A program made the translations under genes and the position numbers. Below are positions 39,925 to 54,985 of a stretch of DNA of 64,000 nt, piece after piece. The stretch covers positions 1-64,000 of the forward strand of contig NZ_CAMLDL010000003.1 of NCBI RefSeq assembly GCF_946478955.1. Reading direction: 5' to 3'. The stretch comes from an uncultured Sphingomonas sp. (lineage in GTDB: Bacteria; Pseudomonadota; Alphaproteobacteria; Sphingomonadales; Sphingomonadaceae). Position 1 is the first letter of the stretch. Each line of letters begins with the position of its first letter. The notes beneath the pieces are model-generated. The model saw only the letters and a list, made by a program, of their open reading frames with translations, was not told where the DNA came from and searched no databases.

Positions 39925-41331
39925 CTACGCGCAATGTCGGCTGGACTGTCCGCTCGCCGCTTCAGTAAGCCTCGACAAACGCGCGTCGTCATGAAGTCGC
40001 GGTCGTCCAGCAAGGCCGTCGTCGCGAATGTCCTTCCATACGGTCCAGATCGTCGCCGCTGAAAGCGACACCGCAACCATATCAATTATGAACGGTCGGA
40101 TGAACGGGCCAAGCTTGATGTACGCAACGATGATCGTGGTGCTGTGACCCACAAAGGTGTCGCGAACGACGGGGGCGACCTGATCGATGGCAATGTCCGC
40201 AGGTACAGCCAGCAAATAACATAGCGCAATCGCCGTTTTCCGACCCAGGCCTTTTGCCTTTTCACACATCACGAGAAAGGTGATCATGGCTGTGGTGTAT
40301 CCACCAGCCTCAGTTGAAATTAGTGCCATGCACAAAGCCAATGTAATCGGTCGAACGGCCGGGATCACTTCCGGTCTTAGATAGATGGCAATTGCAGCTA
40401 GCAAGATGATCAGCCGAACTGCATTAAGAAGCACTGGGAGGAACCATGCTAGAAATTCGGTCCATTGCGATCCGATAATCGCCGAAACCGAAAAAATTTC
40501 GCTGTCGAGCAGTTTCGACAAAGCTTCATAGGTGGTGGCAGACCACATATCGAGCGGAGACGTCGATTGCGTGTTTGACCAATTTTGGAGATTGGTGGCG
40601 ATTTCAAAAATCGTCCCTCGACCTAAAATTGCATAGGAAGCCAAGTAGACGAAAATTGTCGCCACCGTCGCGCCTTCCACCCACGTCCATTTACGTCGCA
40701 GCAACGGTGCGAAAAGGGTCCCAATCAAATAGACCTTGAAGTTAATTGCCAGACCAAGAAAAATCCAACGCAACCGTGCGCTCTTCAGCAAGGGCGAAAA
40801 CGCAAATACCATGCAGGTAAATGCGACAATTATCAAATTGCCGCGCTCCAGACCATTCAACATTGGCCAGCCGAGTGTAACTGCAATTGTCCGAGGAATG
40901 CAGGCTTGACGATCAATTTTACGGAATGCCAGATAAACAATAATGATATTTAATAAAAAAAACGAAAACATCCCGACGTAGCTTAACCAGTCACAATATC
41001 TCGCCGCCAGGCCAAAGCCGCCATCTGATGCGAACGCTCTGGCGGGATAGCATTTGTCTAAACTTAATAAATCCAGAAAAACAAATGACAATGGCGGATA
41101 TAATGTTGTCCAGGCGTCATAGCTTCCGCGATCATAAGCCCAATACGCCGTGTTGAACCAATCAGCGAATAGATCGTCAGGATCGTAGAAAAACGTAAAT
41201 GGCAGATGTTTATTAATAAATAAATAGACAATTGTGTAAATGACGCATGCTATAATGAATGCGCCCATTATCCATTCAAATGCCAACCATTTGCGGCCGG
41301 TGTCCGGCGCGATTGGTTCAGGCACCGCCAT
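39925..41331 (-). CDS. Multi-spanning GT-C-type membrane glycosyltransferase (candidate)
   Basis: A 468-residue protein with about ten hydrophobic segments and a large polar loop after the first, DPDDLFADWFNTAYWAYDRG, which contains acidic residues as in the first luminal loop of GT-C enzymes (GT87/DUF2029-like). Such enzymes transfer a sugar from a lipid phosphate carrier to a glycan in the periplasm. It is the last gene of the glycan locus and follows gtrA with a 14-bp overlap, which fits the role of the third, type-specific gene of a gtr cassette. The coding sequence is visibly richer in A and T than its neighbours. Confidence 0.7.
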   Translation of the reverse strand: MAVPEPIAPDTGRKWLAFEWIMGAFIIACVIYTIVYLFINKHLPFTFFYDPDDLFADWFNTAYWAYDRGSYDAWTTLYPPLSFVFLDLLSLDKCYPARAFASDGGFGLAARYCDWLSYVGMFSFFLLNIIIVYLAFRKIDRQACIPRTIAVTLGWPMLNGLERGNLIIVAFTCMVFAFSPLLKSARLRWIFLGLAINFKVYLIGTLFAPLLRRKWTWVEGATVATIFVYLASYAILGRGTIFEIATNLQNWSNTQSTSPLDMWSATTYEALSKLLDSEIFSVSAIIGSQWTEFLAWFLPVLLNAVRLIILLAAIAIYLRPEVIPAVRPITLALCMALISTEAGGYTTAMITFLVMCEKAKGLGRKTAIALCYLLAVPADIAIDQVAPVVRDTFVGHSTTIIVAYIKLGPFIRPFIIDMVAVSLSAATIWTVWKDIRDDGLAGRPRLHDDARLSRLTEAASGQSSRHCA

Positions 41332-41716
41332 TTACTGGCTCCCTGAAAACCCAGCGTTTCAGGACAAGATAATTTACCGCCGAGACGAACACGATGGTCA
41401 ACAAGCCAGCGAGATATGGCGATGCGACAATGTGAGAGAAAAGGTAGAGCGTCGCGACGCTAACGACGTAATTCACTGCATAAGACAGAACAAAATTTAC
41501 GCGGCTCGTTTGATGCCCCGCGAAGGCGTAGCGCGAGAAGGTGAAATAATTGAACAGGACGCCCATTATGTGGGCCAAAACCTGCGCCAGAAACATGTTC
41601 ATGCCTGCCCACACAAGAGCTGCAAACAGGCCATATCCAAACATCGAGTTCAGAATACCGGCTTGGTAATAGCGGAATATTCTCCGCCATTCGGAGCGTG
41701 AGCGCCAGTCAATCAT
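41318..41716 (-). CDS. GtrA-family membrane protein (lipid-linked sugar flippase)
   Basis: The 132-residue protein has four membrane helices and the GtrA family pattern: FRYYQAGILNSMFGYGLF at the first helix, AHIMGVLFNYFTFSRYAF in the centre and NYLVLKRWVF at the end. GtrA proteins are thought to move undecaprenyl-phosphate-linked sugars across the inner membrane. It sits between a GtrB-like glycosyltransferase (1 bp gap) and a GT-C-like protein, as in O-antigen modification cassettes. The gene is AT-richer than the genome average seen here. Confidence 0.88.
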   Translation of the reverse strand: MIDWRSRSEWRRIFRYYQAGILNSMFGYGLFAALVWAGMNMFLAQVLAHIMGVLFNYFTFSRYAFAGHQTSRVNFVLSYAVNYVVSVATLYLFSHIVASPYLAGLLTIVFVSAVNYLVLKRWVFREPVNGGA

Positions 41717-41717
41717 G

Positions 41718-42668
41718 TTATTTCGCGTCCTGGAAATTGACGCGCTCTTGTTCCACCACGAGGCGCTGGTTTCGCCCCCTTTCAGAGATCAGTTGAACCT
41801 GGACGCCAATAAGGCCCAGAAACAGGAACAGAAGAGTGAACTGCCCCTCCAGCATGGCGGCAAAAAGCCAAAGCTGCACCGATCGTCCGTCAAAAACCGC
41901 AATGCCTGCTCCAAGCAGGCAAATTAGGGTCAGCACACCCATGAAGAACGCGACATACAACGGCGCGCGCAGCAAGCTCTTTGACGAGCCGGCAAGTCCA
42001 TTCAGGGCAAAGTCGAGCAGCGTAAAAAAGTTGTTGTTCGAGCGACCACCCGTCCGCAACGGGCGATGGTACGGGATGGTTTCGATGGCGTACCCAGTTT
42101 CGACCAGCAGGCCGCGAAAGAATGGCTCGGGTTCGTTCAACTCTTCAATCGTTCGAACAACACACGCGTCATAAATGCCGAAACCGGTGGCGTTCGGGAT
42201 GATAGGATAATCGCCAATGGACCGCTGGATACGATAGGACATCGCACGGATCGCGCTGAGGATCGCCCCCGACCGCTCTCGTTGCCGAACACCCAACACA
42301 ATCCGAGTGCCAGCGCGCCAGCGCTGCACAAATTCCGGTATTAATTCCGGCGAGTCCTGGAAGTCGGCGCACATTGAAATCACTGCGCGCCCGCGTGCCT
42401 GATAGATGCCGTGAGTTGGCGACCGCATCTGACCGAAATTCCGGGTGTTTACGATCAACTTTATGCGTGGGTCATTGGCGCACATCGCCTTGACCAGTTC
42501 GACTGTTCGGTCCTGCGAATCATTGTCGATGAAAATGATCTCGTAATCCGCGTCCACGCTTTGCAGTTGAGTGCCAACTGCTTCAGCGATCGCCCGCACA
42601 TTTTCTTCCTCATTGCGGCAGGCAATGACGACTGACACTTCCGGCCGCGGAATTGGATTATGCAACAT
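41718..42668 (-). CDS. Family 2 glycosyltransferase, GtrB/DPM-like
   Basis: A 316-residue protein with an N-terminal GT2 domain (VSVVIACRNEEENV, EIIFIDNDSQDRT, and SMCADFQDSPELIP, which aligns with the DxD/Q-region of dolichol-phosphate mannose synthases) and two membrane helices near the C terminus (about 225-255 and 265-295). This is the architecture of GtrB, which transfers a sugar from a nucleotide to undecaprenyl phosphate. The nucleotide sugar is unknown; given the CDP-sugar genes upstream, a CDP-activated deoxysugar is possible. The stop overlaps nothing; gtrA begins 1 bp later. Confidence 0.88.
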   Translation of the reverse strand: MLHNPIPRPEVSVVIACRNEEENVRAIAEAVGTQLQSVDADYEIIFIDNDSQDRTVELVKAMCANDPRIKLIVNTRNFGQMRSPTHGIYQARGRAVISMCADFQDSPELIPEFVQRWRAGTRIVLGVRQRERSGAILSAIRAMSYRIQRSIGDYPIIPNATGFGIYDACVVRTIEELNEPEPFFRGLLVETGYAIETIPYHRPLRTGGRSNNNFFTLLDFALNGLAGSSKSLLRAPLYVAFFMGVLTLICLLGAGIAVFDGRSVQLWLFAAMLEGQFTLLFLFLGLIGVQVQLISERGRNQRLVVEQERVNFQDAK

Positions 42669-43770
42669 CTTGCACCTTGGGATTGCGCCTCATGTAACCG
42701 ACGGGAGGGCGCATGAGATAAAATTCAATGGCGGCAAAAAGCATCGCCAAAACGATGGCAGCGGCCAGCGCCGGATAATAAAGCTGGCGCCCTGTCTCGA
42801 CATAGGCAGGTTCCAGCAAACGAATGCTCGCGTTGGACGTGAGATCCTCCACCGACGTGCCCTGAAGAAAGCGGAGATAACTATCGTACAATCCCCGGGC
42901 GAGCGCCAATTCACGTTCCAGCCGGTAAAGCTTGCTGGTCGTCGCGACGGCCTGTCCAACGGTGTTTTCGCCGGCCACATTGGTTTGGCGAAGTTGACGC
43001 AACTGCGCCTGGAGCGCAGCTAGCTCTGCGGTTAGTTGCCGAATGACAGGGTTTTGATCCGCATACATCTGGCGTGCAGACGCAAGTTCAATCTGCTTGC
43101 CTTTGATTGCACTTTCAACTTGCGTAATTTCACTGGTTACAATTTCATCTTTGATACCGGGCGTGGGCGTCCGGTTCCGCAACCTGAATTGGTCATAGGT
43201 CGCTTGCGCCATTGCCAGGCGATCGGATGCCTCGCCGGCTAACCGCTCAAGCACACTACGCTTATAGGCCGTCCGGCGGCGGCTGATTTCAGCCAGCATG
43301 TCCTGAGTTGAGTCAGCATAGGCCCCGACGATGTCGCGCGCCAAGTCAGCATCCCGGTTTTTCATCTCGATGAGAATGATACCGCCGCGCAAGGACCGGG
43401 GACGTACTTCATCTTCGAGGAAATCGTGTAATTGCGCGCGGGTTTTCCCCGGCATCCGCTGTTCCAATTTGAGCCGGTCAATGACGCGGTTGCGCACCTC
43501 AACGCTACGGGAAACTCGCAACGCAATCTCGACCGCCGCCTGATTGCCGAAAACGTTATTTATAGCGCCAAGCTGGCCCAGCGTGCTGCTGAGTCCCAAC
43601 GAGTCCGGATCTGTCGGCGTAAGCGACGTGGCCGCGTAATATCGCTGCGGGACCATCGATAGGATGAGGAACAGTACAATCAACATGAACATCGCAAGGC
43701 GACGAGTCCAGGTCGAGCGGAACAACGGAAAATTGACGATGGACGCCATTAATGAGGAGGGAGGCGTCAT
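42658..43770 (-). CDS. Wzz-type polysaccharide chain-length determinant (no kinase domain)
   Basis: A 370-residue polysaccharide co-polymerase: a membrane helix near the N terminus (about 25-42), a periplasmic coiled-coil region (about 160-300) and a second helix at about 330-352 (PALAAAIVLAMLFAAIEFYL), followed by a short cytoplasmic tail. There is no BY-kinase domain and no Walker motif. Such proteins set glycan chain length. The ATG directly follows the Wza stop, and the 3' end overlaps the GT2 gene by 11 bp. The proline-rich motif before the second helix is weak. Confidence 0.82.
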   Translation of the reverse strand: MTPPSSLMASIVNFPLFRSTWTRRLAMFMLIVLFLILSMVPQRYYAATSLTPTDPDSLGLSSTLGQLGAINNVFGNQAAVEIALRVSRSVEVRNRVIDRLKLEQRMPGKTRAQLHDFLEDEVRPRSLRGGIILIEMKNRDADLARDIVGAYADSTQDMLAEISRRRTAYKRSVLERLAGEASDRLAMAQATYDQFRLRNRTPTPGIKDEIVTSEITQVESAIKGKQIELASARQMYADQNPVIRQLTAELAALQAQLRQLRQTNVAGENTVGQAVATTSKLYRLERELALARGLYDSYLRFLQGTSVEDLTSNASIRLLEPAYVETGRQLYYPALAAAIVLAMLFAAIEFYLMRPPVGYMRRNPKVQDVA

Positions 43771-45732
43771 CTATTTCACCACTGCCGCGATCGTTCCGGC
43801 ACTCAAACCAAGCGACAGCAGCGATGTCGTAATATCTTTAAATCGTGACCAGAACACACCCGTTTGGGTTTTAACCGGCACAAAAATGATATCGCCTGGC
43901 AGAACGCGTGTATTCATCGCACCCCGTGATTTTGGAAGCACTTCGCCATTTGCGCGAACGACAAAGATGGTCTGTTTGTCGGCAGCGCGCACGGGCCCAC
44001 CTGCCTTATAGACATAATCCTTCACCTTCAGCGGCCGATACGGATCAACTAGGAACGACGCTGGGCGATAGACTGCCCCAAAGACGCCAACGGTAGTGGC
44101 CATCGTCGGAATATGAATAGAATCGTTGTTTTCCAATCGAATTCCATCAGGAATTGCCGTGGCCGATGGCAAGATATCAAGTACGACCCGGCCGTCTGGC
44201 TTGTCCTTCTTCAGCCGGTCAAGAAATGCATTTGCGGCCTGAAGCTGACTGTTACGCAGCTCAGCAGATTGACTAGTGTCAGACGTAAGCGGTGCAGACG
44301 CCAATGTCATTTCGAGCTGACGAATAGCTTCTTTATAGCTATCCTGCTGCTGCAACATCACCGACTGACGAACAAATTTCGTGCCATAAACATAGGCGTT
44401 ACGCGTAAGGCCGCCGGCGAGTTGAACCACCTGGCTGGTTGGCGTGTTTGGCGGCACATAATAGATCCCCGGCCGATTCACTTCACCGTCAATTCGGACA
44501 AGAATTGATTGCCGATCCGTCGGTTGCGCCAGACTGCCCTTAGGCAGAACCTGCATAATGTCGCCGCTTATAACCTGAACAGCAGCAGCCTCCGCCCGGC
44601 GGATTTGCTGCGGGCCCGTGATGTCCGGCGTATTTGTGCGATACAAAATCAAACGACTAGAGTCGCCCAGCGCAGTTGGCCCGCCAGCTGCGGCCAACAT
44701 GGTCTCCATCGACTCTCCAGGCTTTGCCTCATAGATAGCCTCTTCGTTGACGCTACCAATGACTGCGACTTGCTCGCCTGCTGGCGGAATGAACAGCACA
44801 TCTTCGTTCTGAAGAGTCATGTCATTAATCCGATTTCCGCCGCGCAGAAGCTCATACATGTCGAAGTCGCCGACTTCTTGCCCGTTACGGTAGAGCTTAA
44901 TTGTCCGGAAACTGCCTCCGCTGCTTGGCCCACCGGCCTGGAACACGGCATTTGCCATTGTCGACAAGCTGTTCACGCTAAAGGCGCCCGGATTATTCGC
45001 GAATCCCGTTACGTAAACGCGAATTCCGCGAAGCTCCGAAATGGAAACAGAGACTTCATAGCCGCGATACTGGCGTCCAACAGCTGCGGAAATTTTGTCC
45101 TTCAAGTCACCGTAGCGCACCCCCGCTACGTGAATCGAACCGACGTTTGCCAGGAAAATATTTCCGTTTGTATCGACCTCCCGAACGACGCTGCCGTCAA
45201 TGGAACCGGAAAGCGAGATCGAGATTCTGTCACCTGGGTTGATGATATAGCTTGGCGGGACTGTCGCCATGGCCGGGGTCGCAAAATCACGCTGCGACGG
45301 CAACAGCAGGTCCGCCCCAAACCGTGGCAACGGACGCCCTAGCAAGCGAGCCATATACTCTTCAAACTCACCAGGCGCCGCTGGCTTCTTGTAAAGATTA
45401 GTCGTGTTTCCCTGTTGCGCGCGGATCAAATCCTCACGTGTCAAAAATGCGCTTCTATCGCTGATCACCTGCGGCGAAAGTATTGACGAAGTGGTCGCAG
45501 TGTTGGTCGCTGCCGGCATCTGGCTCGACGATGGAACATTTCCGATGATGACACTGGCAGAGCCCTGGGAGCCCATGCCAGTCGGATCGAGCGGAGAGCC
45601 GGACGGCGTATTGGACCCGTATGGATTAGCCCCATATGGATTCGACGATTGCGCCTGCACGGGTGATACCCATGCAAGGGCAGAAGACGCCAAAGCGACG
45701 ACAACGACGGTTGAACGGTTCAAGGTGTACAT
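43771..45732 (-). CDS. Wza-type polysaccharide export protein with several SLBB domains
   Basis: An outer-membrane/periplasmic exporter of 653 residues. Signal peptide at 1-28 (cleavage after VQAQ), without lipobox cysteine, then a low-complexity Asn/Ser/Gly/Pro segment. The polysaccharide export domain is at about 160-240 (YIINPGDRISISLSG, VREVDTNGNIFLANVG). Then there are SLBB-like repeats, among them VRVYVTGFANNPGAF-like, VAVIGSVNEEAIYE, ILVRIDGEVNRPGIYYV and VGVFGAVYRPASFLV. At about 650 residues it is much longer than E. coli Wza (379). It lies between the SDR and Wzz genes in the operon. Confidence 0.9.
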   Translation of the reverse strand: MYTLNRSTVVVVALASSALAWVSPVQAQSSNPYGANPYGSNTPSGSPLDPTGMGSQGSASVIIGNVPSSSQMPAATNTATTSSILSPQVISDRSAFLTREDLIRAQQGNTTNLYKKPAAPGEFEEYMARLLGRPLPRFGADLLLPSQRDFATPAMATVPPSYIINPGDRISISLSGSIDGSVVREVDTNGNIFLANVGSIHVAGVRYGDLKDKISAAVGRQYRGYEVSVSISELRGIRVYVTGFANNPGAFSVNSLSTMANAVFQAGGPSSGGSFRTIKLYRNGQEVGDFDMYELLRGGNRINDMTLQNEDVLFIPPAGEQVAVIGSVNEEAIYEAKPGESMETMLAAAGGPTALGDSSRLILYRTNTPDITGPQQIRRAEAAAVQVISGDIMQVLPKGSLAQPTDRQSILVRIDGEVNRPGIYYVPPNTPTSQVVQLAGGLTRNAYVYGTKFVRQSVMLQQQDSYKEAIRQLEMTLASAPLTSDTSQSAELRNSQLQAANAFLDRLKKDKPDGRVVLDILPSATAIPDGIRLENNDSIHIPTMATTVGVFGAVYRPASFLVDPYRPLKVKDYVYKAGGPVRAADKQTIFVVRANGEVLPKSRGAMNTRVLPGDIIFVPVKTQTGVFWSRFKDITTSLLSLGLSAGTIAAVVK

Positions 45733-45735
45733 ACC

Positions 45736-46749
45736 TTATGCTTCCAAATTGGATTTTGGACGTATCGCCATCGACTGCGCCACGCCATTAATGAATTGAG
45801 CTGTCAGCAAAATTTGATCATCGAGTGACGTTCTGGCCACGCCATAAGCCTCAAGCAATTCAAGATATTGCTGTTGATCGCCGACATAGTTGTCGGCGCA
45901 GGAGTTGGTGATCTCTGCCCGCTCGACACCCTGTCCGCCAAGCAGTCGATCAATTTTTTGAGCTAACTCTCCAAGTTCGATGTGCTCCCCGCCAGTATCG
46001 AACCGGGTTACGATTCCTGCCGGATCCTTGTCGAGCAAAATAGCAAGCGCCAAACTGACAAGTTCAGTGACGGGGACATAGCTCCGACGGATTTCCTTGG
46101 TGGCCCTTACGGTAATTTGCTCGCCGGCCAGTGCATCGCGGATAAACGAAGAGATAGCATAGATTTCGGGCTTGTTGATGTAGGGCCCGGTCAGGCTGAA
46201 AATTCTGGCAATAATTGCATGACGATCATCGCCGGCTGCGGCCCATTCAGCCGCTCGCGCTTCTTCGTAGAGCTTCGCGCGCCCATAAAGATCGATCGGA
46301 CTTCCCGGCCCGTCCCGGTCAAAGAATTGCGCGGCCCCGGATGATGCAATGAAAAGCCGGTCCACACCAACCGCTGCAAGCGAATCGATAACCCCGTCGG
46401 TGATGAGGCGAGTGTTTTCCATATAGGATTCGGCGCTCATCAAGCTGACCTTATCCATCGTCAGGAACGCGAGATGAAAAAGAAGCGAGCGCTCGTGATC
46501 CAGGCCGCTCAGCTCACTGAGCGGCCGCTGCTCAAGGCTTTGTCCATTCCCGAAATGCACCAGCTTTGCCGACGACCCAAAAATGCGGACCCGGTCAGCA
46601 AATGCTTCGTCGCCCAATGCGTCATGCAACATTGCAAGCGCCGTGCGCCCGATCCAGCCACTGGCGCCGGTTATGATGATGCGCCGCCGATCATTCTTAA
46701 GGGAAAGGGCAAGCGGTTCAGGAAATTGCAGGGCGCTGTGTGCCGACAT
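45736..46749 (-). CDS. Extended short-chain dehydrogenase/epimerase (NAD(P)-dependent)
   Basis: The 337-residue protein has the Rossmann loop IIITGASGWIGRTAL, the catalytic serine region FIASSGAAQFF and the YxxxK pair in LYGRAK. It belongs to the extended SDRs that reduce, epimerise or dehydrate nucleotide sugars. It follows the ThDP enzyme gene by 6 bp. In the yersiniose pathway the ThDP enzyme YerE is followed by reductase YerF that reduces the acetyl branch; this SDR could play that part, although I see no specific YerF signature. Confidence 0.82.
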   Translation of the reverse strand: MSAHSALQFPEPLALSLKNDRRRIIITGASGWIGRTALAMLHDALGDEAFADRVRIFGSSAKLVHFGNGQSLEQRPLSELSGLDHERSLLFHLAFLTMDKVSLMSAESYMENTRLITDGVIDSLAAVGVDRLFIASSGAAQFFDRDGPGSPIDLYGRAKLYEEARAAEWAAAGDDRHAIIARIFSLTGPYINKPEIYAISSFIRDALAGEQITVRATKEIRRSYVPVTELVSLALAILLDKDPAGIVTRFDTGGEHIELGELAQKIDRLLGGQGVERAEITNSCADNYVGDQQQYLELLEAYGVARTSLDDQILLTAQFINGVAQSMAIRPKSNLEA

Positions 46750-46755
46750 TCAGCG

Positions 46756-48513
46756 TCAACCGACCGTATCAGTCTGCTTTTCAGCACTATTTAAATAATC
46801 AATCTCGGGCGTCATGCGATCGATAGGATTGGACTCCATTGATCCGCTTGCCGTGATCCGGCTGCTAATTTTGGGGAAGTAGGTCTGCTCTGGATCGATC
46901 GGGACAATGAACGCCTGGGGACCATTGCTTTCCATCCGCTCAACAAATGTTTCATCGCCAGCAAAGTCGATGGGCAGCGTCATTACTGGAATGTCCCACG
47001 CGGCGAAAAGCTTTTGCCAGCTTGGGAGGCCAAGCCCTGACTTGGTGTCGCAACCGAGATATTTTCCGTCAAAATAGCTCCGCTGGGTCATCCGGATGGA
47101 TGCGTGTCCCTGATCGTCGAAGATGAAGATCTTTAGGTTCAGCTGGTTGACGGCAACGGTGCCAAGCTCCTGCATATTCTGAGCAAAACCGCCATCACCC
47201 TCAATCAAAATGGTTCGCCGCCCGTCGCCAGCGACGGCGGCGCCGACCGCGCCTGAGAGCCCGTAGCCCATTGAAGCTAGCGACTTATTGGTCAACATAC
47301 GCTGACCTAGCTTTTGCTTGTAGAGCTGCATCGACAATGTGAATGCGCTGCCACTAGAGCATGGGATTACCAAATCGTTTGGCGTCGTGACCGTTTCCAG
47401 TTTCAGGATGAAGTCATACGGCGAAAGATACCCCTCGCCCGTATTGTTGACATCCTCTACCCTCGGAACCGCAGCACGAATTTGGCGTGACTTTTCCAAC
47501 CATTGCGTTTTCGGCGGAAGCGCGTGCTTCACAAGACGCGCAAGAAAATCATTGGCGTCGACCTGCAAACCAACATCAACGCGCGGATGACCCTTCTGCA
47601 GCTCAGCCGGGTCGATTTCGACCTGAACAATTTTGGCATCGCGACCGAATTCCTGCCAGTTGAATCCGGTTTGCTGCATGCCGAGCCGAGTGCCAACGGC
47701 AATGATCAAATCAGCCTGCTGGATAATAATGTTGGCGCTTCTCTGACCCCAGGTATTTGGTCGGCCTAAATAGTTGGTCGCGTCACCGTCCACGCGGTCA
47801 GCACCATTATAGGTTGTCATCAAAGGCACACCGAGCTCACCCAGTCGGTCACGGAGCGCGTCGGCGGTTGCATAATCAACGCCGCCGCCAATCAGCAATA
47901 TCGGCTGGCGCGCGTCCTTATACATTTCGGCTACGGCTGAAATCTGCTCGTCCGACGCCAGTGGCAACGCCGGATGGACTACGGGCGGCAAGTCGGTTTC
48001 ATCCACCGAACGTGCCTGAATATCGAGCGGCATTTCGAGGAACACTGGCCCCTTTCGCGGCGTCCAGCTTTCTGAAATTAGACGGAGAAATTCGTCGCCA
48101 TCGATCACATCTTCAAATCGATATGAAATCTTGGTGGTTGACTTGAGAAGCTCGACGCCGTCGACCTCCTGAATTCCTCTCGACCGCAACTGCTGTCGCG
48201 CGAGGTCCGCGGTTTTGACCTGACCGCCGATCACCAGCAACTCCCGGCTTTCAAGCCACGCACCGCTTACCGCCGTCACAATATTCGTCAGGCCAGGCCC
48301 TGCCGTCACAAGTGCCAGGGCCTTCGCCGGCGCGGCGATTTCGTTGAAATACTCTGCCGCAATTCCGGCCGCAACTTCGTGCACCACCGGTACCCCGCGC
48401 AAATAGCGATCGAGGCTCTCGGTCAGGTGCATAATATTGCCACCACCAACATAAAAATAATGGGTATAACCGGCCGCCTTCAACCAGGCGCCGATTTGAT
48501 CACTGTATTTCAT
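46756..48513 (-). CDS. Acetolactate synthase-like ThDP-dependent enzyme (YerE-type candidate)
   Basis: The 585-residue protein has the three domains of the acetohydroxyacid synthase family. The ThDP-activating glutamate is Glu46 in VVHEVAAGIAAEY, the central domain starts after about 190 and the ThDP-binding motif GDGGFAQN is at 439-446. The metal-binding Asn of the ThDP motif seems to be replaced by Asp in IFDDQGHASIR (about 464-474). In a deoxysugar cluster such an enzyme is expected to transfer a two-carbon unit from pyruvate to a 4-ketosugar, as YerE does in CDP-yersiniose synthesis. It overlaps the HAD gene by 4 bp. An ordinary acetolactate synthase is unlikely because no ilvH follows. 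Confidence 0.85.
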   Translation of the reverse strand: MKYSDQIGAWLKAAGYTHYFYVGGGNIMHLTESLDRYLRGVPVVHEVAAGIAAEYFNEIAAPAKALALVTAGPGLTNIVTAVSGAWLESRELLVIGGQVKTADLARQQLRSRGIQEVDGVELLKSTTKISYRFEDVIDGDEFLRLISESWTPRKGPVFLEMPLDIQARSVDETDLPPVVHPALPLASDEQISAVAEMYKDARQPILLIGGGVDYATADALRDRLGELGVPLMTTYNGADRVDGDATNYLGRPNTWGQRSANIIIQQADLIIAVGTRLGMQQTGFNWQEFGRDAKIVQVEIDPAELQKGHPRVDVGLQVDANDFLARLVKHALPPKTQWLEKSRQIRAAVPRVEDVNNTGEGYLSPYDFILKLETVTTPNDLVIPCSSGSAFTLSMQLYKQKLGQRMLTNKSLASMGYGLSGAVGAAVAGDGRRTILIEGDGGFAQNMQELGTVAVNQLNLKIFIFDDQGHASIRMTQRSYFDGKYLGCDTKSGLGLPSWQKLFAAWDIPVMTLPIDFAGDETFVERMESNGPQAFIVPIDPEQTYFPKISSRITASGSMESNPIDRMTPEIDYLNSAEKQTDTVG

Positions 48514-49214
48514 GCGGCCTGCTGCTCCGTGAGCGAAATCAAAGACGAAATAATGTTGATGACCTGATTTGACGACAAGCTGCCCGGGGTTCCCTGATCA
48601 TACCCCCAGTCCGCATGAAGCGGCAGGTGAATTTGCCCCTCAAAGGGCTCAAGATGGCTGTTCATATCATCGACATAAACAATCAGGTGCTTGCCACGCT
48701 CAAGCCATTGCTGGGCCTTGGCGACCTCAAGCTTGCTGCCCAATTTTCTAATGTCTTCCTGTCCGAAGACCGGAATCACGTCGGCATCGTGAAACGCCAT
48801 TGCTTCGCGGATGGACGCGACGTTGCGCGTCGATAGGATGATAAACCTATCGGGGTGCTTCAACAGAAACGGCTTAAGGAGATAAAAGAAATCGTAGGCA
48901 GGCATGGACTTCGGCCACTGCGGATCATCCATCAACTCCTTGCGCGCCGCAAAGAATTCCGCCGCAAATGCCCAATCGGCAGCGTTGGGCTCAACTGACC
49001 GAAGCAAGTTCGGCTCCACCGCTTCGAAGGCACAATACAGGCGCCGGTAATGCCACGCATCCGTGACAACCGAACGAAACGCCAGAAATTCTTCGTAGCT
49101 CACATCCTGACGGAATTCTTCCTTCCCGCTCGTCGCCATGTTGGCGACGGTAAACGCCTCATGGGCGCTGTTGAAAAGGACACCGTCAAAATCGAGGAGG
49201 AACCGTACTTCCAT
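48510..49214 (-). CDS. HAD-superfamily phosphatase
   Basis: A 234-residue protein with HAD motif I as LLDFDGVLFNS (Asp8 and Asp10), motif II as FIILSTRN and motif IV as VYVDDMNSHLE. A cap of about 100 residues lies between motifs I and II. This makes a phosphatase on a small phosphorylated metabolite likely. Its ATG shares one base with the aldolase stop (TAATG), and its stop overlaps the ThDP gene (ATGA), so it is firmly part of the sugar operon. By analogy with KDO and sialic acid pathways it might remove phosphate from an aldol product; that is inference. Confidence 0.85.
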   Translation of the reverse strand: MEVRFLLDFDGVLFNSAHEAFTVANMATSGKEEFRQDVSYEEFLAFRSVVTDAWHYRRLYCAFEAVEPNLLRSVEPNAADWAFAAEFFAARKELMDDPQWPKSMPAYDFFYLLKPFLLKHPDRFIILSTRNVASIREAMAFHDADVIPVFGQEDIRKLGSKLEVAKAQQWLERGKHLIVYVDDMNSHLEPFEGQIHLPLHADWGYDQGTPGSLSSNQVINIISSLISLTEQQAA

Positions 49215-49963
49215 TACAGCCGCGACCGAATTTGCGTAAGTCGGGCGTCGGCCGCCTTGGTTATCACGGAGTGATAATCAGATTGCATCGACAGCAGATC
49301 GGCTTCAACCTCAAAAGCCTTCTCGAGCGAGTCCTGCTTCAGGAAGCTTGCCATTGGCATGACGCACTTCCGCGTCTCGACACAGCTGATGAGCGTCCGC
49401 AGATCCTCATCAGCAAGCAACAATTCGCGCGTGGCAGTTCCGACTGAACCACCCATGGTTGTCTTCAGACCGCGCGCTTTCGCTGCACGTGCAACGGTCT
49501 TGACCATTTCAATGGTACGCGGACTTTCCACGCCCGAGCCGCCATAGCTGGCGGTCAAGTCGGTGCGACCGACGGTGACTTCAGTCAGCTTTACGCCGGC
49601 ATCCAGAATCGCTTCGATCCGGTCGACCGCATCGATGGTTTCGATCGTTACGCCGACATGATCGAACGCACCCTCGGGAAGCATCGCCTGATACTTGCTC
49701 ATTGCGAAGGCGCTCTCGATCATTGGCGCTACAATCGACTTGATGCCGATCTGACGCAGAAAACGCATGTCCGATTTTGCTTCGCATCCGCCAATCTTGA
49801 CCAAATAACCCAGGCCGAGACGCGCCGCGTATATGGTTTCCGCAGCGATGGAATCGCGGGAAAGACCTTCGGCCTCGAATTCGCCCTTGATGGCAATAAT
49901 GTCCTGATCGGACTCCTGATCATCCATCAGATCAGTCGTGCTTACGCGCTCGTAACGATTCAT
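49214..49963 (-). CDS. HpcH/HpaI-family aldolase (citrate lyase-like)
   Basis: A 249-residue TIM-barrel protein. The family core is visible as KSIVAPMIESAFAMSKY and VTIETIDAVDRIEAILDAG, then VTVGRTDLTASYGGSG, giving Glu108 and Asp135 as metal ligands. Members cleave or form C-C bonds between pyruvate (or acetyl-CoA units) and an aldehyde. Its presence within an rfbFGH sugar cluster is unusual. It overlaps the HAD gene by one base and follows RfbH by 2 bp. The substrate cannot be deduced; it may make a three-carbon branch or extend the sugar chain. Confidence 0.85.
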   Translation of the reverse strand: MNRYERVSTTDLMDDQESDQDIIAIKGEFEAEGLSRDSIAAETIYAARLGLGYLVKIGGCEAKSDMRFLRQIGIKSIVAPMIESAFAMSKYQAMLPEGAFDHVGVTIETIDAVDRIEAILDAGVKLTEVTVGRTDLTASYGGSGVESPRTIEMVKTVARAAKARGLKTTMGGSVGTATRELLLADEDLRTLISCVETRKCVMPMASFLKQDSLEKAFEVEADLLSMQSDYHSVITKAADARLTQIRSRL

Positions 49964-49965
49964 CT

Positions 49966-51345
49966 TTATTCCCCATCCCGCTTGCCAGCACCACGCTGTA
50001 GGAAGTCGGCTACAGTGCGCTGCATGTAGGCGATGTGATCTTCGCCAAGTCCTGGATACAGGCCCACCCAGAAGGTGCGCTCGGTTACAATATCGGCATT
50101 TTCCAACGTGCCAGACACGCGATAGTTACGGCCCTTCATATAAGGCTGACGGATCAGGTTCCCGCCAAACAGCAGGCGCGTTCCGATCTTCGCGGCGTCA
50201 AGGAACTGAGTGAGCTCCTCGCGCTGGAAAGGCGCATTTTCCCGAATGGTCAGCGGGAAGCCAAACCAAGAAGGATCGCTGTTCGGAGTGGCTTCAGGGA
50301 GGATGAACACATCCTCAAACTGCTTGAACGCCTCCGTCAACAATCCGAAATTGCGCCGACGTGCCGCGATAAATTCATCGAGGTGGTCAAGCTGAGCAAG
50401 GCCAACCGCCGCCTGCATGTCGGTAATCTTCAGATTGTAGCCAAGGTGGCCATAGGTGTATTTGTGGTCATACCCCATCGGCAGGTCGCCGAGTTTGCGA
50501 CAAAACCGCTTGCCGCACGTATTGTCCATGCCCGGCGCGCACCAGCAGTCGCGGCCCCAATCGCGGAAGGATTCAATAACACGCTTGAGACGCGGCTTAT
50601 CGGTAAACACGGCGCCGCCTTCACCCATAGTAATGTGGTGGGCTGGGTAGAAACTCAATGTTCCGATATCGCCGAACGTGCCAACATTCTGGCCGTTGTA
50701 GGTTGCGCCGAGTGCGTCGCAGCAATCTTCGATCAGCCACAAGCCATATTTGTCGGCAATGCGCCGGACCTCGGCCAGGTCAAAAGGATTACCCAATGTA
50801 TGGGCCACCATAATCGCACGCGTGCGATCAGAAATTGCCGCCTCGATGGCATCTGGACGAATGTTGTAAGTCGGAATGTCGACGTCCACGAACACCGGCA
50901 CCAGCCCGTATTGCAACGACGGATTGACGGTGGTCGGGAAGCCTGCAGCGCAGGTGATGACTTCATCACCCGGCTTCAGCGCCTCGCCGCGCAAATAATG
51001 CGACGTCAGCGTCGCGAGCGCGAGCAAATTCGCCGATGAACCCGAATTTGTCGTCAACACGTGTCGGATGCCGATGAATTCGGCCAAACGCGCTTCAAAC
51101 TGATCGTTAAATCGGCCAGTCGTCAGCCAAAAATCCAGCGCGCTATCGACCAGCATTCGCATGTCGTTCGCGCCGTAAACCTTACCCGAAACCGGAACAG
51201 GGCTGACGCCCGGCTCGAATACCTTTGGCGCATGGAACTGCCTTGCGTATTGCTCGGTCAATTCAAGGATCAGGCTGCGAAGCTCTGACTCGTCGGCCTG
51301 TCCAACCGATGCCGCTGCGAGCCGGTCGTCGACACTCACGCCCAT
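49966..51345 (-). CDS. rfbH: CDP-6-deoxy-4-keto-glucose 3-dehydrase (E1), RfbH type
   Basis: Removes the C3 hydroxyl of CDP-4-keto-6-deoxyglucose with pyridoxamine phosphate and an iron-sulfur cluster. The usual PLP lysine is replaced by histidine in [14 protein letters not shown] (His236), the hallmark of E1. Four cysteines at 267, 269, 277 and 282 (spacing CX1C-X7-C-X4-C) match the 2Fe-2S ligands of the Yersinia enzyme. Length of 459 residues fits. The partner reductase E3 (ascD-like) is not in this locus and must be elsewhere. It overlaps rfbG by 10 bp, with GGAGCAACGCA before its ATG. Confidence 0.95.
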
Positions 51346-52436
51346 TGCGTTGCTCCTTCAAAATGGACGTCTGCCACCTTTAGATACTCCTCAAGTTGAT
51401 CTGCGCTTACGGTTCGCGCGTCTTCTCCTGCTGCCACGCTGCGGTGCCAGCTTACGATTTTCTCCAGGGCCTTTTGCAGCCCCCAAACCGGAGACCAGTT
51501 GAGCTGCGCACGTGCCTTGCTGGTATCAAGACGCAGAAGCGTCGCTTCATGCGGGCCGACGACGGGGTCCGCATCCCATTCGACCGGCACACCCCAATGT
51601 CTGCTCATCTGTTCAACGATCCAGCCCACCGGTCGCATGTCATCGTCATTGGGACCAAAATTATAGGCAGTTCCGACCGAACGATCACCGCTCAATATCC
51701 GCTCACCAATGATCAGATAGCCGCCGAGCGCCTCCAGGACATGCTGCCACGGCCGCACGGACCGCGGCGAACGGATGACCGGCGCCTGATTGGCGAGGAA
51801 CGCGCGGACCAGATCGGGGACCAGGCGATCATCCGCCCAATCGCCGCCGCCGATTACATTACCGGCCCGGACGGAACTGATAATCGGGCCCTCAGCTTCG
51901 AAATATGAGCGGCGATAGGCCGAAATGGCGATCTCCGCTGCACCCTTGCTACTGCTGTATGGATCATGGCCACCCATCGGATCAGTTTCCCGATAAGGCC
52001 AAACCCATTCCTTATTCTCATAACATTTGTCGGTCGTTATGCAGACAACGCCCAAAACGCTGTCGACCCGCCGACAGACGTCGAGCAGGTTGACCGTTCC
52101 CATGACGTTGGTCGCATACGTCTCGACTGGCTCTGCGTAGGAATATCGGACCAACGGCTGCGCGGCGAGATGGAAAATTACTTCCGGCCGAATCTCGCGA
52201 ACAACCTTTTCGAGGGCCGCCAGATCGCGAACATCGCCAATTCGATGATCAACGATCTCGCTTAGCCGCGCCTGCTCAAAAAGGCTGGGACTGGTTGGCG
52301 CAGGCAATGAATAGCCAGTGACATTTGCGCCTGCGTGCGCCAGCCACAAAGAAAGCCAGCTACCCTTGAACCCCGTGTGCCCCGTCACGAGAACGCGACG
52401 ACCGCGCCAAGGCTGGCGCTTTACCAGCATTTCCAT
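51336..52436 (-). CDS. rfbG: CDP-glucose 4,6-dehydratase
   Basis: Converts CDP-glucose to CDP-4-keto-6-deoxyglucose. The NAD loop is [33 protein letters not shown] carries the catalytic Thr-Asp-Lys region, and [12 protein letters not shown] the YxxxK motif. The product of 366 residues is normal. The start is the ATG at 52436, preceded by GGAAGGAGGG at the correct distance; it overlaps the end of rfbF by 16 bp. The next gene, rfbH, uses its product. Confidence 0.96.
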
Positions 52437-53188
52437 GGGGCGCCCTCCTTCCAAAGATCCTCCAAGTGGATTTTGTCCCGAAGCGTATCCATTGGCTGCC
52501 AGAAGCCGTCATGCCGAAATGCCACCAATTCTCCATTGGTCGCGAGCTGCTCCAGCGGTCCCTGCTCCCAAATCGTGGAATCGCCCTCGACGAGGTCGAG
52601 AACCGACGGATCAGCGACAAAAAAACCGCCGTTGATCAAGCCGCCGTCTCCAGCCGGTTTTTCTTTGAATTGGCGCACCAGATCGCCTTCGAATTCCAAA
52701 GCGCCAAATCGGCCAGGAGGCGCAACCGCCGTGATGGTTGCCCGCTGCCCATGTTCGCGATGGAACTCAACAAGCTTACCAATATCAATCGATGCCACAC
52801 CGTCACCATAGGTAAAGCAGAACGGCTCACCCGGCGTCAGATAAGGGGCTATACGCTTAAGCCGCCCGCCAGTCATGGTCTCGGCGCCGGTTTCGACCAG
52901 CGTGATCCGCCACGGATCACTCCATTTCTGGTGAACCTCGATTGAGTTCGTCGACAGGTCGATCGTTACATCAGCGTTATGCAGGAAGTAGTTAGCGAAA
53001 TACTCTTTCAGCAAATACCCCTTGTACCCAAGGCAAATAATGAAATCCTTCAGCCCGTACGCTGAATATATTTTCATGATGTGCCAGATGATCGGCATAC
53101 CGCCAATCTCGACCATGGGCTTGGGCCGAACAGACGTTTCTTCGCCAAGCCGAGTGCCCAGCCCCCCCGCCAGAATTACGACCTTCAC
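52421..53188 (-). CDS. rfbF: Glucose-1-phosphate cytidylyltransferase
   Basis: Makes CDP-glucose from glucose-1-phosphate and CTP, the entry to CDP-deoxysugars. The N terminus KVVILAGGLGTRLGEETSVR has the nucleotidyltransferase GGxGTRL signature, and FTYGDGVASIDI the metal-binding aspartate; the RPKPMVEIGGMP block is typical of the family. The start is GTG at 53188, preceded by GGGAGC. It lies downstream of a 132-bp AT-rich gap that probably carries a promoter for the sugar genes. Confidence 0.96.
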   Translation of the reverse strand: MKVVILAGGLGTRLGEETSVRPKPMVEIGGMPIIWHIMKIYSAYGLKDFIICLGYKGYLLKEYFANYFLHNADVTIDLSTNSIEVHQKWSDPWRITLVETGAETMTGGRLKRIAPYLTPGEPFCFTYGDGVASIDIGKLVEFHREHGQRATITAVAPPGRFGALEFEGDLVRQFKEKPAGDGGLINGGFFVADPSVLDLVEGDSTIWEQGPLEQLATNGELVAFRHDGFWQPMDTLRDKIHLEDLWKEGAPWKCW

Positions 53189-53320: not shown

Positions 53321-54985
53321 TTAATCTCGAACCGTATGTTTCATAACACGCACGGTCGGGCCGCCAGACTCAAATGCCTTTGGTTGGAACAACGCGATTG
53401 CTTCGTATCCGGAACTTAATTGTTGATAGTTCCGCCACTCAACTGCGTACTTTACGCGGTCATTCGCATACGCGTCGTAATATGTCAGAATCAAGTAATC
53501 CGCGCGACATGTCGACAATAGTTGGGGCGCAACGTTACCAATATCCACGATGGAACCACGTCGTTGGCTCTGGACCTGACCGTAGCTAGTCTTTGGCGAA
53601 AGAAGCGCCCTCCCATCTTGACACCCGGCGCTCCCCATCGGGAAGAGGATTTTCCAATTTGTCGCTTGGAGGTCGAGGGCAAGATGTTCGACCACAACAC
53701 TTGCATCTTTTGGAATATTGCGCCGTGCCCAACCGGCCGCCGCTGACCTGGTATCGTTGTTACGCGCATCAAGATGATGGGCCGTAGAGACCGCTGGCCC
53801 CACGAGAAGGAGGGCAACAACTAAGAGACGAAGCCCGTGTGCGCGATTCCGAATTGCAGGCCCGTTTAGCCGCGCCAAGGCCCAGTCGGCGCCAACGGCC
53901 GCACAAATCGCGAACAGGGGAATACTTGGCGTCAACCATCTCGACCATATTTGCACCTGGGCCGAAATCAGAAACATTTGTATTAGCAAAACGGGAAGCA
54001 ATGTAAGTCGCGTATCGCCCCGCGAGGCCAGCACCAGAACACCGGGGAAAATTAAAGCGAACGCAGGCGCGCCCATCGTGCTGAGCAATAGGCTGGCATA
54101 GAACATCACATTGCCGACTAGCCCAACGCTATCATGGCCCAAATGCCCGCGGGCGACTTCGCCGGATAGGTCCGACGCCACCTGACGCCAGTCGAGAATC
54201 AAATAGGGTGAAACGATCACTAGGGTGAAGATCGTAGTCGCTGCGAGAAGCGCAAAGCGGTTCAATAGCAATCGGCGCTCACCCGATATGCGGGCGCGAT
54301 AGATAGCCGCGCCCACGCCAGCGATCAACGCAACGCCGCCGGGCCACTTCACCGCCATGGCGAGGCCGGTCATTACACCGAGCAACGCAAAGTCGCGCCG
54401 CCGACCTGTTTTCGTCGCCTCAAGCGCAAAATATACGCCAGCAAGAACAAATACGGACGACTGGATATCTGTCCGGATCACTTGCGACCAGATTATGTGC
54501 AAACTGTTTAGCGCGACCAGCGCGGCTGCAAGCAGCGCGGCCCAGTCACTAACAAGCTGGCGCGCAATTTTGGCGGTTAGATAAACCGCAATCACGGCGT
54601 AGACCACGAATACGAGCCGGGCAGGAAGAACCACGAGCGAAGGATCCGCGAGTACCGCCTGGGCAAAGTCGTTCAAGGAATTGAACTGTCCAGTAAGGAG
54701 GCCAAAAACCGCTACAACGCACTCGACAACGGCGACGGTGTATATGGTCAGCGTTCCAGGATGCCCAAACCACATCGGGTTAAGACTGCCTCGATCCAGT
54801 AACTCATAGCCCTTCAACAGGAATAATGGTTCATCGGGGTCCAGTAGCGCAGGAAGTCCAAATCCAACGGTGGATAGCCGAAGTAAAAAGGCCGCCAACA
54901 GAATGACGGCCAAGGCCCAACCAAAGCGGATTTTGAACGCAGTCAATGGCGGAAGCCTTTTTAATCGGACGCAGATGCGTTCCAA
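53321..54985 (-). CDS. GT39/ArnT-like membrane glycosyltransferase (candidate)
   Basis: A 554-residue protein with about ten to twelve membrane helices and, near the N terminus, a loop with LLDPDEPLFLLKGYELLD. The DE pair in the first periplasmic loop resembles the metal-binding acidic residues of lipid-phosphate-sugar GT-C enzymes (Pmt/ArnT/GT39). The C-terminal third is soluble. It would attach a sugar to a glycan or lipid in the periplasm. It is the first gene of the minus-strand locus; a gap of 132 bp separates it from rfbF, so whether it shares its transcript is uncertain. Confidence 0.78.
   Translation of the reverse strand: MERICVRLKRLPPLTAFKIRFGWALAVILLAAFLLRLSTVGFGLPALLDPDEPLFLLKGYELLDRGSLNPMWFGHPGTLTIYTVAVVECVVAVFGLLTGQFNSLNDFAQAVLADPSLVVLPARLVFVVYAVIAVYLTAKIARQLVSDWAALLAAALVALNSLHIIWSQVIRTDIQSSVFVLAGVYFALEATKTGRRRDFALLGVMTGLAMAVKWPGGVALIAGVGAAIYRARISGERRLLLNRFALLAATTIFTLVIVSPYLILDWRQVASDLSGEVARGHLGHDSVGLVGNVMFYASLLLSTMGAPAFALIFPGVLVLASRGDTRLTLLPVLLIQMFLISAQVQIWSRWLTPSIPLFAICAAVGADWALARLNGPAIRNRAHGLRLLVVALLLVGPAVSTAHHLDARNNDTRSAAAGWARRNIPKDASVVVEHLALDLQATNWKILFPMGSAGCQDGRALLSPKTSYGQVQSQRRGSIVDIGNVAPQLLSTCRADYLILTYYDAYANDRVKYAVEWRNYQQLSSGYEAIALFQPKAFESGGPTVRVMKHTVRD

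Follow-up and report, generated by a model that had tools for sequence, protein, structure and literature searches.

A Sphingomonas operon predicted to make a CDP-activated branched 3,6-dideoxyhexose, with an aldolase and a phosphatase proposed to build the acyl donor

The DNA analysed here (the window, 64,000 nucleotides) comes from an uncultured Sphingomonas sp. (assembly GCF_946478955.1, contig NZ_CAMLDL010000003.1, positions 1 to 64,000). The open reading frame (ORF) listing places seven ORFs within 45736..53188, all on the minus strand: RfbF, RfbG, RfbH, an HpcH/HpaI-like pyruvate aldolase, a haloacid dehalogenase (HAD) phosphatase, a thiamine diphosphate (ThDP) enzyme and a short-chain dehydrogenase/reductase (SDR). 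We propose, with a probability of roughly three in four, that this operon makes a cytidine diphosphate (CDP)-activated C4-branched 3,6-dideoxyhexose whose polyhydroxyalkyl branch is longer than acetyl; the chemistry is one that we infer step by step. RfbF, RfbG and RfbH, whose family assignment is firm and whose activity is predicted from it, would give CDP-4-keto-3,6-dideoxyglucose together with an E3 reductase from elsewhere. The aldolase would condense pyruvate with a phosphorylated aldehyde into a phosphorylated 4-hydroxy-2-oxo acid, from which the HAD phosphatase would strip the phosphate. By analogy with ErwE, the ThDP enzyme would then decarboxylate this 3-deoxy-2-oxo acid, and not pyruvate, and add the acyl carbanion to the C4 ketone, and the SDR would reduce the ketone that remains at branch C1.

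This proposal starts from the donors used by related enzymes. Passages of PMC12247030 describe YerE as using pyruvate or 2-oxobutyrate, with at most a C3 transfer, and ErwE, of the erwiniose pathway, as taking its acyl donors from 4-hydroxy-2-oxo acids and not from pyruvate; 4-hydroxy-2-oxovalerate is accepted by ErwE, and the donor preference of MMAR_2332, of the caryophyllose pathway of Mycobacterium marinum, is said there to be similar. Pyruvate aldolases form 4-hydroxy-2-oxo acids, so the aldolase is the expected source of the ThDP donor, and a phosphatase is expected as well if the aldehyde partner is phosphorylated. Caryophyllose, given in a portion of PMC5706390 as 3,6-dideoxy-4-C-[1,3,4,5-tetrahydroxyhexyl]-hexose, carries a CH2 at C2 of its branch, as would be expected if this carbon came from the pyruvate methyl. 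By carbon count, a seven-carbon 4-hydroxy-2-oxo acid losing CO2 would leave a six-carbon branch with the former pyruvate methyl as its C2.

The first-pass annotation of the window had claimed the seven genes in this order, with these identities for RfbFGH, the aldolase and the HAD protein and with overlaps of one and four bases in the middle of the operon, and on all of these points it holds. RfbF, a glucose-1-phosphate cytidylyltransferase (52421..53188; TIGR02623, 439.6 bits for a cut-off of 300.25), RfbG, a CDP-glucose 4,6-dehydratase (51336..52436; TIGR02622, 488.4 bits for a cut-off of 278.45), and RfbH, a CDP-6-deoxy-4-keto-glucose 3-dehydrase of E1 type (49966..51345; NF011936, 732.2 bits for a cut-off of 423), all exceed their curated cut-offs. 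In RfbH a histidine replaces the lysine that binds pyridoxal phosphate and a CxCx7C motif is present, which we take to be the marks of E1-type dehydrases. The intergenic distances are −10 (RfbG–RfbH), +2 (RfbH–aldolase), −1 (aldolase–HAD), −4 (HAD–ThDP) and +6 (ThDP–SDR). The 34-base overlap of RfbF and RfbG (52421-52454) hinges on a doubtful TTG start of RfbG, the ORF as listed reaching 52454; this TTG falls within the likely ribosome-binding site of RfbG, whose translation more probably begins at an ATG near 52436, which follows GGAAGGAGG. The order RfbF-G-H-aldolase-HAD-ThDP-SDR is found in ten of the 15 closest loci, which were fetched via the aldolase, so the arrangement is not due to chance. 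Of the five exceptions, L011 has no RfbF label, L013 has RfbFGH on the opposite strand, L015 ends at a contig edge, and in L004 and L005 RfbH is located elsewhere in the genome.

The ThDP enzyme (46756..48513) contains three TPP_enzyme domains (Pfam), a GDG motif at position 439 and a catalytic-type glutamate at position 46. In a search of the PDB its best relative is JanthE (PDB entry 8rph, 271.8 bits), compared with 205 bits for the best acetolactate synthase, an acetohydroxyacid synthase II; it is YerE-like, being closer to a characterised enzyme of that kind than to the acetolactate synthases. None of the 25 NCBIfam models listed, of 53 matched, reached its own cut-off. The residues that follow GDG are DD, compared with the usual NN; three close relatives have HD, HD and DD, and more distant ones NN or EN. 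The SDR (45736..46749; PF01370, 66.9 bits), of the SDR/epimerase type, shows the GxxGxxG and YxxxK motifs and is proposed to play a YerF-like role as the reductase of the branch ketone.

The aldolase (49214..49963) matches PF03328, and its AlphaFold model (pLDDT 93.3) resembles HpcH/HpaI aldolases by fold comparison, which was used because no PDB sequence matched the aldolase profile. Residues Glu108 and Asp135 are invariant in the alignment; we presume from the motifs that they bind the metal. The HAD protein (48510..49214) has no Pfam or NCBIfam match, and its PDB search returned a single chance match (E = 0.79). Its HAD motifs I–IV are invariant across 21 aligned sequences, and its structure model resembles the class IA HAD phosphatases.

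A search of genomes for co-occurrence of these genes, which the first-pass annotation had suggested, bears out the association. Scanning a genome collection with the aldolase alignment gave 122 aldolase relatives, of which 80 were retained; in 60 of these 80 a ThDP homologue lies no more than 6.5 kb away. One or more ORFs labelled RfbF, RfbG or RfbH are present in 56 of the 80 loci, these labels being loose (some with only 22–30% identity). A gene of one of three HAD families or of a 3-dehydroquinate (DHQ)-synthase-like family, all proposed to remove phosphate, lies nearby in 54 of the 60 loci with a ThDP gene and in three of the 20 without. Of 249 evenly drawn Sphingomonadaceae genomes (E ≤ 1e-20 for the aldolase and ≤ 1e-70 for the ThDP enzyme), 19 have the ThDP enzyme and 14 the aldolase, and each of these 14 also has the ThDP enzyme (p ~5e-18, with the centre genome removed and kinship ignored). 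Searches of plasmids gave three records for the aldolase and 16 for the ThDP enzyme, ten of the latter annotated ilvG and six without annotation.

Loci were also chosen by their match to the ThDP enzyme of the window, so that they were not selected via the aldolase. Three draws (Sphingomonadaceae, 19/249; the class of Mitsuaria, 9/369 at E ≤ 1e-62; its phylum, 19/299) gave 46 distinct genomes; in four other genomes, the ThDP matches ranking behind the YerE-like one were no better than E = 7e-45, well short of the cut-offs. The draw centres G001 and G004, found through the aldolase, were left out of the counts, leaving 44 loci; the contig of L010 is also that of the drawn genome G182. In stretches of up to 20 kb, 17 of the 44 carry the aldolase, 12 a NeuB-like synthase and six a DmpG-type aldolase; in eight no donor enzyme was recognised, and the locus of G027, at a contig end, was not fetched. 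At the score used, two of the three cassette types never occur in one locus. A Pfam scan of the unlabelled ORFs in the DmpG loci did give a single strong NeuB match (E = 8.5e-94); it most likely comes from the ORF at 18533-19738 of L116, which lies at a distance and is labelled NeuB at 24%.

The NeuB-like gene directly adjoins the ThDP gene in 11 of its 12 loci; membership of PF03102 was checked with Pfam in four of them (L117, L118, L164 and L167), the rest being assigned by similarity. PF03102 is the NeuB family of phosphoenolpyruvate (PEP)-dependent ulosonic-acid synthases. Of the DmpG loci, L116 matches TIGR03215 and TIGR03217 above their cut-offs (acetaldehyde dehydrogenase and 4-hydroxy-2-oxovalerate aldolase), and the other five were labelled through 57–67% identity to this pair. 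In catabolism the pair cleaves 4-hydroxy-2-oxovalerate; in the ThDP loci DmpFG would run in the synthetic direction. If the operon works as we propose, the aldolase and its NeuB-like and DmpG replacements would each give a 4-hydroxy-2-oxo (3-deoxy-2-oxo) acid. Upstream of RfbF, two DmpG-type clusters carry a reductase with Fer2, FAD and NAD domains (L116, 1015-1992; L163, 3376-4344), which is likely to be the E3 partner of RfbH there.

A phosphate-removing partner accompanies the aldolase. Within the fetched stretches it is present in all 17 aldolase loci of the ThDP-anchored set, as the HAD type of the window (two loci), HAD_2 (three), a Hydrolase_6-type HAD (two), a DHQ-synthase-like protein (four) or an inositol-monophosphatase-type protein (six), and in none of the six DmpG loci (p ~1e-5 for aldolase versus DmpG loci), four of the 12 NeuB loci and one of the eight loci without a cassette. 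The aldehyde of the DmpG reaction would be unphosphorylated, and its zero count fits the model; no phosphatase was found in the DmpG loci among the 25 of 75 matched Pfam families listed for 36 of 38 unlabelled ORFs scanned together, or in ten mid-sized ORFs scanned singly. The DHQ-synthase-like family, F16, occurs in 19 of the 80 aldolase-anchored loci, for example at 12871-13962 of L115, paired with a short-chain reductase; the L115 gene resembles TIGR04425 (AroB-related putative sugar phosphate phospholyase) but does not reach the cut-off. Such an enzyme may remove phosphate by elimination and, together with the short-chain reductase, convert a CH2-O-phosphate end into CHOH-CH3, as in caryophyllose.

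In a tree of 73 ThDP sequences, those of the aldolase+HAD_2 loci L113 and L114 are sister to those of the NeuB+HAD_2 loci L117 and L118 (98/91), and that of L167 (NeuB with the DHQ-synthase-like gene) is sister to that of L168 (aldolase with the DHQ-synthase-like gene; 100/100). The condensing enzyme seems to have been exchanged and the phosphate-removing enzyme retained, as would be expected if the aldolase and the NeuB-like synthase make equivalent phosphorylated acids. In a further draw, of 396 Actinomycetota genomes, 12 have a ThDP match at E ≤ 1e-58; the centre G890 was excluded, G1252 was not fetched and ten loci were fetched. They include aldolase with the DHQ-synthase-like gene (L195, L196), aldolase with HAD_2 (L197) and NeuB with HAD_2 (L194); L184 meets a contig end and L199-L202 have no recognised cassette. 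The draw was aimed at a mycobacterial locus for caryophyllose, and none of the loci could be recognised as such. The NeuB-like synthase of L194 (7465-8979), which adjoins the YerE-like ThDP gene and HAD_2, carries a C-terminal cupin domain.

A number of observations weigh against the proposed pathway. A tblastn search of the window with two E3-like query proteins found no E3 reductase. The aldolase is a divergent family member, its PF03328 score lying barely above the cut-off (28.9 bits for 25), and it has Lys56 at the site expected for the catalytic, enolate-stabilising arginine of HpaI, an equivalence that we assume from motif mapping. Measured against the PseI and NeuB equivalog models, the NeuB-like proteins of L117 and L118 fall far short of the cut-offs, and the NeuB loci with a recognised phosphate-removing gene are few (4/12, as given above). 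Aldolase loci supplied the profiles for the phosphate-removing genes, and the inositol-phosphatase type was added post hoc, having been recognised only in these draws (L174 and L176 with Pfam, the other four via a profile built from those two). Two of the six DmpG loci, L116 (8252-9094) and L163, have a canonical HpcH/HpaI gene as well, located between their cassette and ThDP genes and perhaps serving a second chain extension, and L198, from the Actinomycetota, combines an HMGL-like protein, a canonical HpcH and HAD_2. No ThDP gene lies near the aldolase in the 20 remaining loci of the 80. Five of these relatives (L025, L063, L073, L074 and L078) adjoin one protein family, whose L073 member, the one scanned, is an LdpA-like 4Fe-4S protein; this would be a different use of the aldolase family. 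An LdpA-like protein is also found in L198, between RfbH and a HAD.

The eight of 44 ThDP loci without a recognised donor enzyme count on the same side, and they would suit a yersiniose-type pathway with passengers, in which the ThDP enzyme adds acetyl from pyruvate, the SDR reduces it, and the aldolase and HAD belong to another pathway; RfbFGH, a ThDP enzyme and an SDR are indeed the yersiniose set. Among these eight, the aldolase lies on another contig in G015 and G198, and G717 and G772 have short contigs. We regard this explanation as improbable, given that the aldolase and a phosphate-removing enzyme accompany the ThDP gene in genomes of several phyla and that, where the aldolase is absent, other 2-oxo acid enzymes usually take its place.

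A plasmid of Novosphingobium humi is also unfavourable to our proposal: RfbF, RfbG and the aldolase, flanked by a PMT gene and by Wza, Wzz and GT2 genes (L081, 8329-18163), stand there without RfbH, HAD or ThDP genes in the stretch, and the whole 1.06 Mb plasmid has no match to RfbH or the ThDP enzyme. Making a donor does not account for this arrangement, which remains unexplained by our model and is what might be seen if the aldolase acted on the nucleotide sugar, with pyruvate going onto the C4 ketone or onto an aldehyde that arises once the ThDP enzyme has acted; both C–C bonds would then be made on the CDP-sugar. We nevertheless doubt that this is how the operon works: such a reaction leaves unexplained both the phosphate-removing partner of the aldolase and its swap with 4-hydroxy-2-oxovalerate aldolase, whose substrate or product is a known ErwE donor.

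A last unfavourable locus is on a plasmid of Ilyobacter polytropus, where an aldolase relative lies near genes for an aconitase, a 2-hydroxyacid dehydrogenase and a carboxylate transporter (L082, 8982-17003), which suggests a catabolic member. Both this locus and the fold relatives HpaI and 2-dehydro-3-deoxy-galactarate aldolase, which are catabolic lyases, would agree with an aldolase that cleaves a sugar acid and so supplies pyruvate or an aldehyde as the donor, the HAD having a salvage role, but we give this very little credence, since pyruvate requires no dedicated source, the swap partner NeuB belongs to a synthase family and DmpFG adjoins RfbFGH.

We retain a donor built by the aldolase and the phosphatase, which changes several claims of the first-pass annotation. 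A CDP-deoxysugar operon with two C–C bond-forming enzymes, and its link to caryophyllose-type sugars, are supported. The aldolase and phosphatase, which had been placed outside a YerE-type scheme, most likely make the acyl donor of the ThDP enzyme, in line with the preference of ErwE and the structure of caryophyllose, and the addition of acetyl from pyruvate is unlikely if the donor is a 4-hydroxy-2-oxo acid. The two C–C bonds would be successive in one branch and not at two positions of the sugar. As for the sugar being undescribed, this stands, in the literature searched, for the aldolase-plus-phosphatase route and the actual product, whereas the general logic is known: it has already been published that YerE/ErwE-like enzymes branch CDP-4-keto-3,6-dideoxyglucose using a long donor. 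No description of the aldolase-plus-phosphatase cassette, or of the exchange of that cassette, was found in the literature searched; part of this reading may already stand in the primary papers on ErwE and on more than 200 YerE-like enzymes (Steitz 2022; Krug 2024).

The operon lies among genes, all on the minus strand, that may serve the export of a surface glycan. It is followed by a Wza-like SLBB/Poly_export protein (43771..45732; PF02563, PF10531) and by an ORF without Pfam match that is presumably a Wzz-like chain-length or export partner, judging by its position (42658..43770). Next come a family 2 glycosyltransferase (GT2; 41718..42668; PF00535, 83.1 bits) resembling polyprenyl-phosphate glycosyltransferases, with matches below the cut-off to PgfS and undecaprenyl-phosphate transferase, a GtrA-type membrane protein (41318..41716; PF04138, 53 bits) and a membrane protein without Pfam match, which is likely to be a GT-C glycosyltransferase and which recurs beside GT2 and GtrA in related loci (39925..41331). 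Upstream of RfbF lies a PMT_2-type membrane glycosyltransferase (53321..54985; PF13231, 50.2 bits). A Wza-like gene follows the operon in 11 of the 15 closest loci and GT2 is present in 12; GT2, GtrA and the Pfam-less membrane protein (39925-42668) form a set that recurs with the operon. The set looks like a system that flips and transfers a sugar on a lipid phosphate; it suggests transfer of a single sugar via such a carrier, and together with the Wza- and Wzz-like proteins it might place the sugar on a surface glycan.

If the aldehyde were erythrose 4-phosphate, the product would be a 12-carbon sugar, caryophyllose with CH2OH in place of CH3 at the end of its branch. More generally, we put forward as a tentative idea, somewhat short of an even chance, that in many phyla bacteria first produce an ulosonic acid in free form, which a ThDP enzyme then decarboxylates and adds as a carbanion to a nucleotide sugar, giving C–C-fused 'double sugars' of about 10 to 13 carbons. 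Both the acid-making cassette (HpcH-like aldolase, NeuB-like synthase or DmpFG) and the end-group cassette (phosphatase for CH2OH; DHQ-synthase-like phosphate lyase with SDR for CHOH-CH3) would be exchangeable. If the acyl donor is indeed made by the cassette next to each ThDP gene, the donor class, and hence the branch length and end group, could be predicted from gene content, each ThDP enzyme could be paired with its own donor-making partner, and biocatalysis would gain aldolase–ThDP pairs for making tertiary alcohols out of pyruvate, aldehyde phosphates and ketones.

Bradyrhizose was considered as the product and set aside; the main-text portion of the paper on its presumed cluster (PMC4743980) mentions no aldolase, thiamine or rfb. 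Passages of papers on the lipooligosaccharide genes of M. marinum do not name the donor-making enzymes for caryophyllose. The gene content of the window, with a YerE-like gene, RfbFGH and a candidate 4-hydroxy-2-oxo acid enzyme, and the replacements of the aldolase in other loci would fit an erwiniose- or caryophyllose-type system, with a product that is predicted. The likeness to the erwiniose pathway of Pectobacterium atrosepticum would lie in a YerE-like enzyme that takes a 4-hydroxy-2-oxo acid as donor and CDP-4-keto-3,6-dideoxyglucose as acceptor; a passage of PMC8657720 gives erwiniose ten carbons, hence a branch of four. The window has an HpcH-like aldolase and a phosphatase. With caryophyllose the shared trait would be a 3,6-dideoxyhexose whose branch carries CH2 at position 2; its branch ends in CH3, whereas removal of phosphate by hydrolysis, as the phosphatase of the window predicts, would leave CH2OH.

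The other two comparisons concern the gene set and the making of the acid. The yersiniose A gene set is RfbFGH with YerE and YerF, with pyruvate as the donor; the window shares RfbFGH, a YerE-like enzyme and a reductase with it, yet it does not match that set in the strict sense of lacking donor-building enzymes, as the aldolase and phosphatase, for which yersiniose A has no need, are both conserved in mid-operon. KdsA with KdsC and NeuB with its phosphatase make ulosonic acids from PEP as the C3 donor and an aldose phosphate, followed by a phosphatase. The proposed route would share this logic of a C3 donor, an aldose phosphate and then a phosphatase step, but with a pyruvate aldolase fold, and its acid would go on to lose CO2 and serve as the acyl donor.

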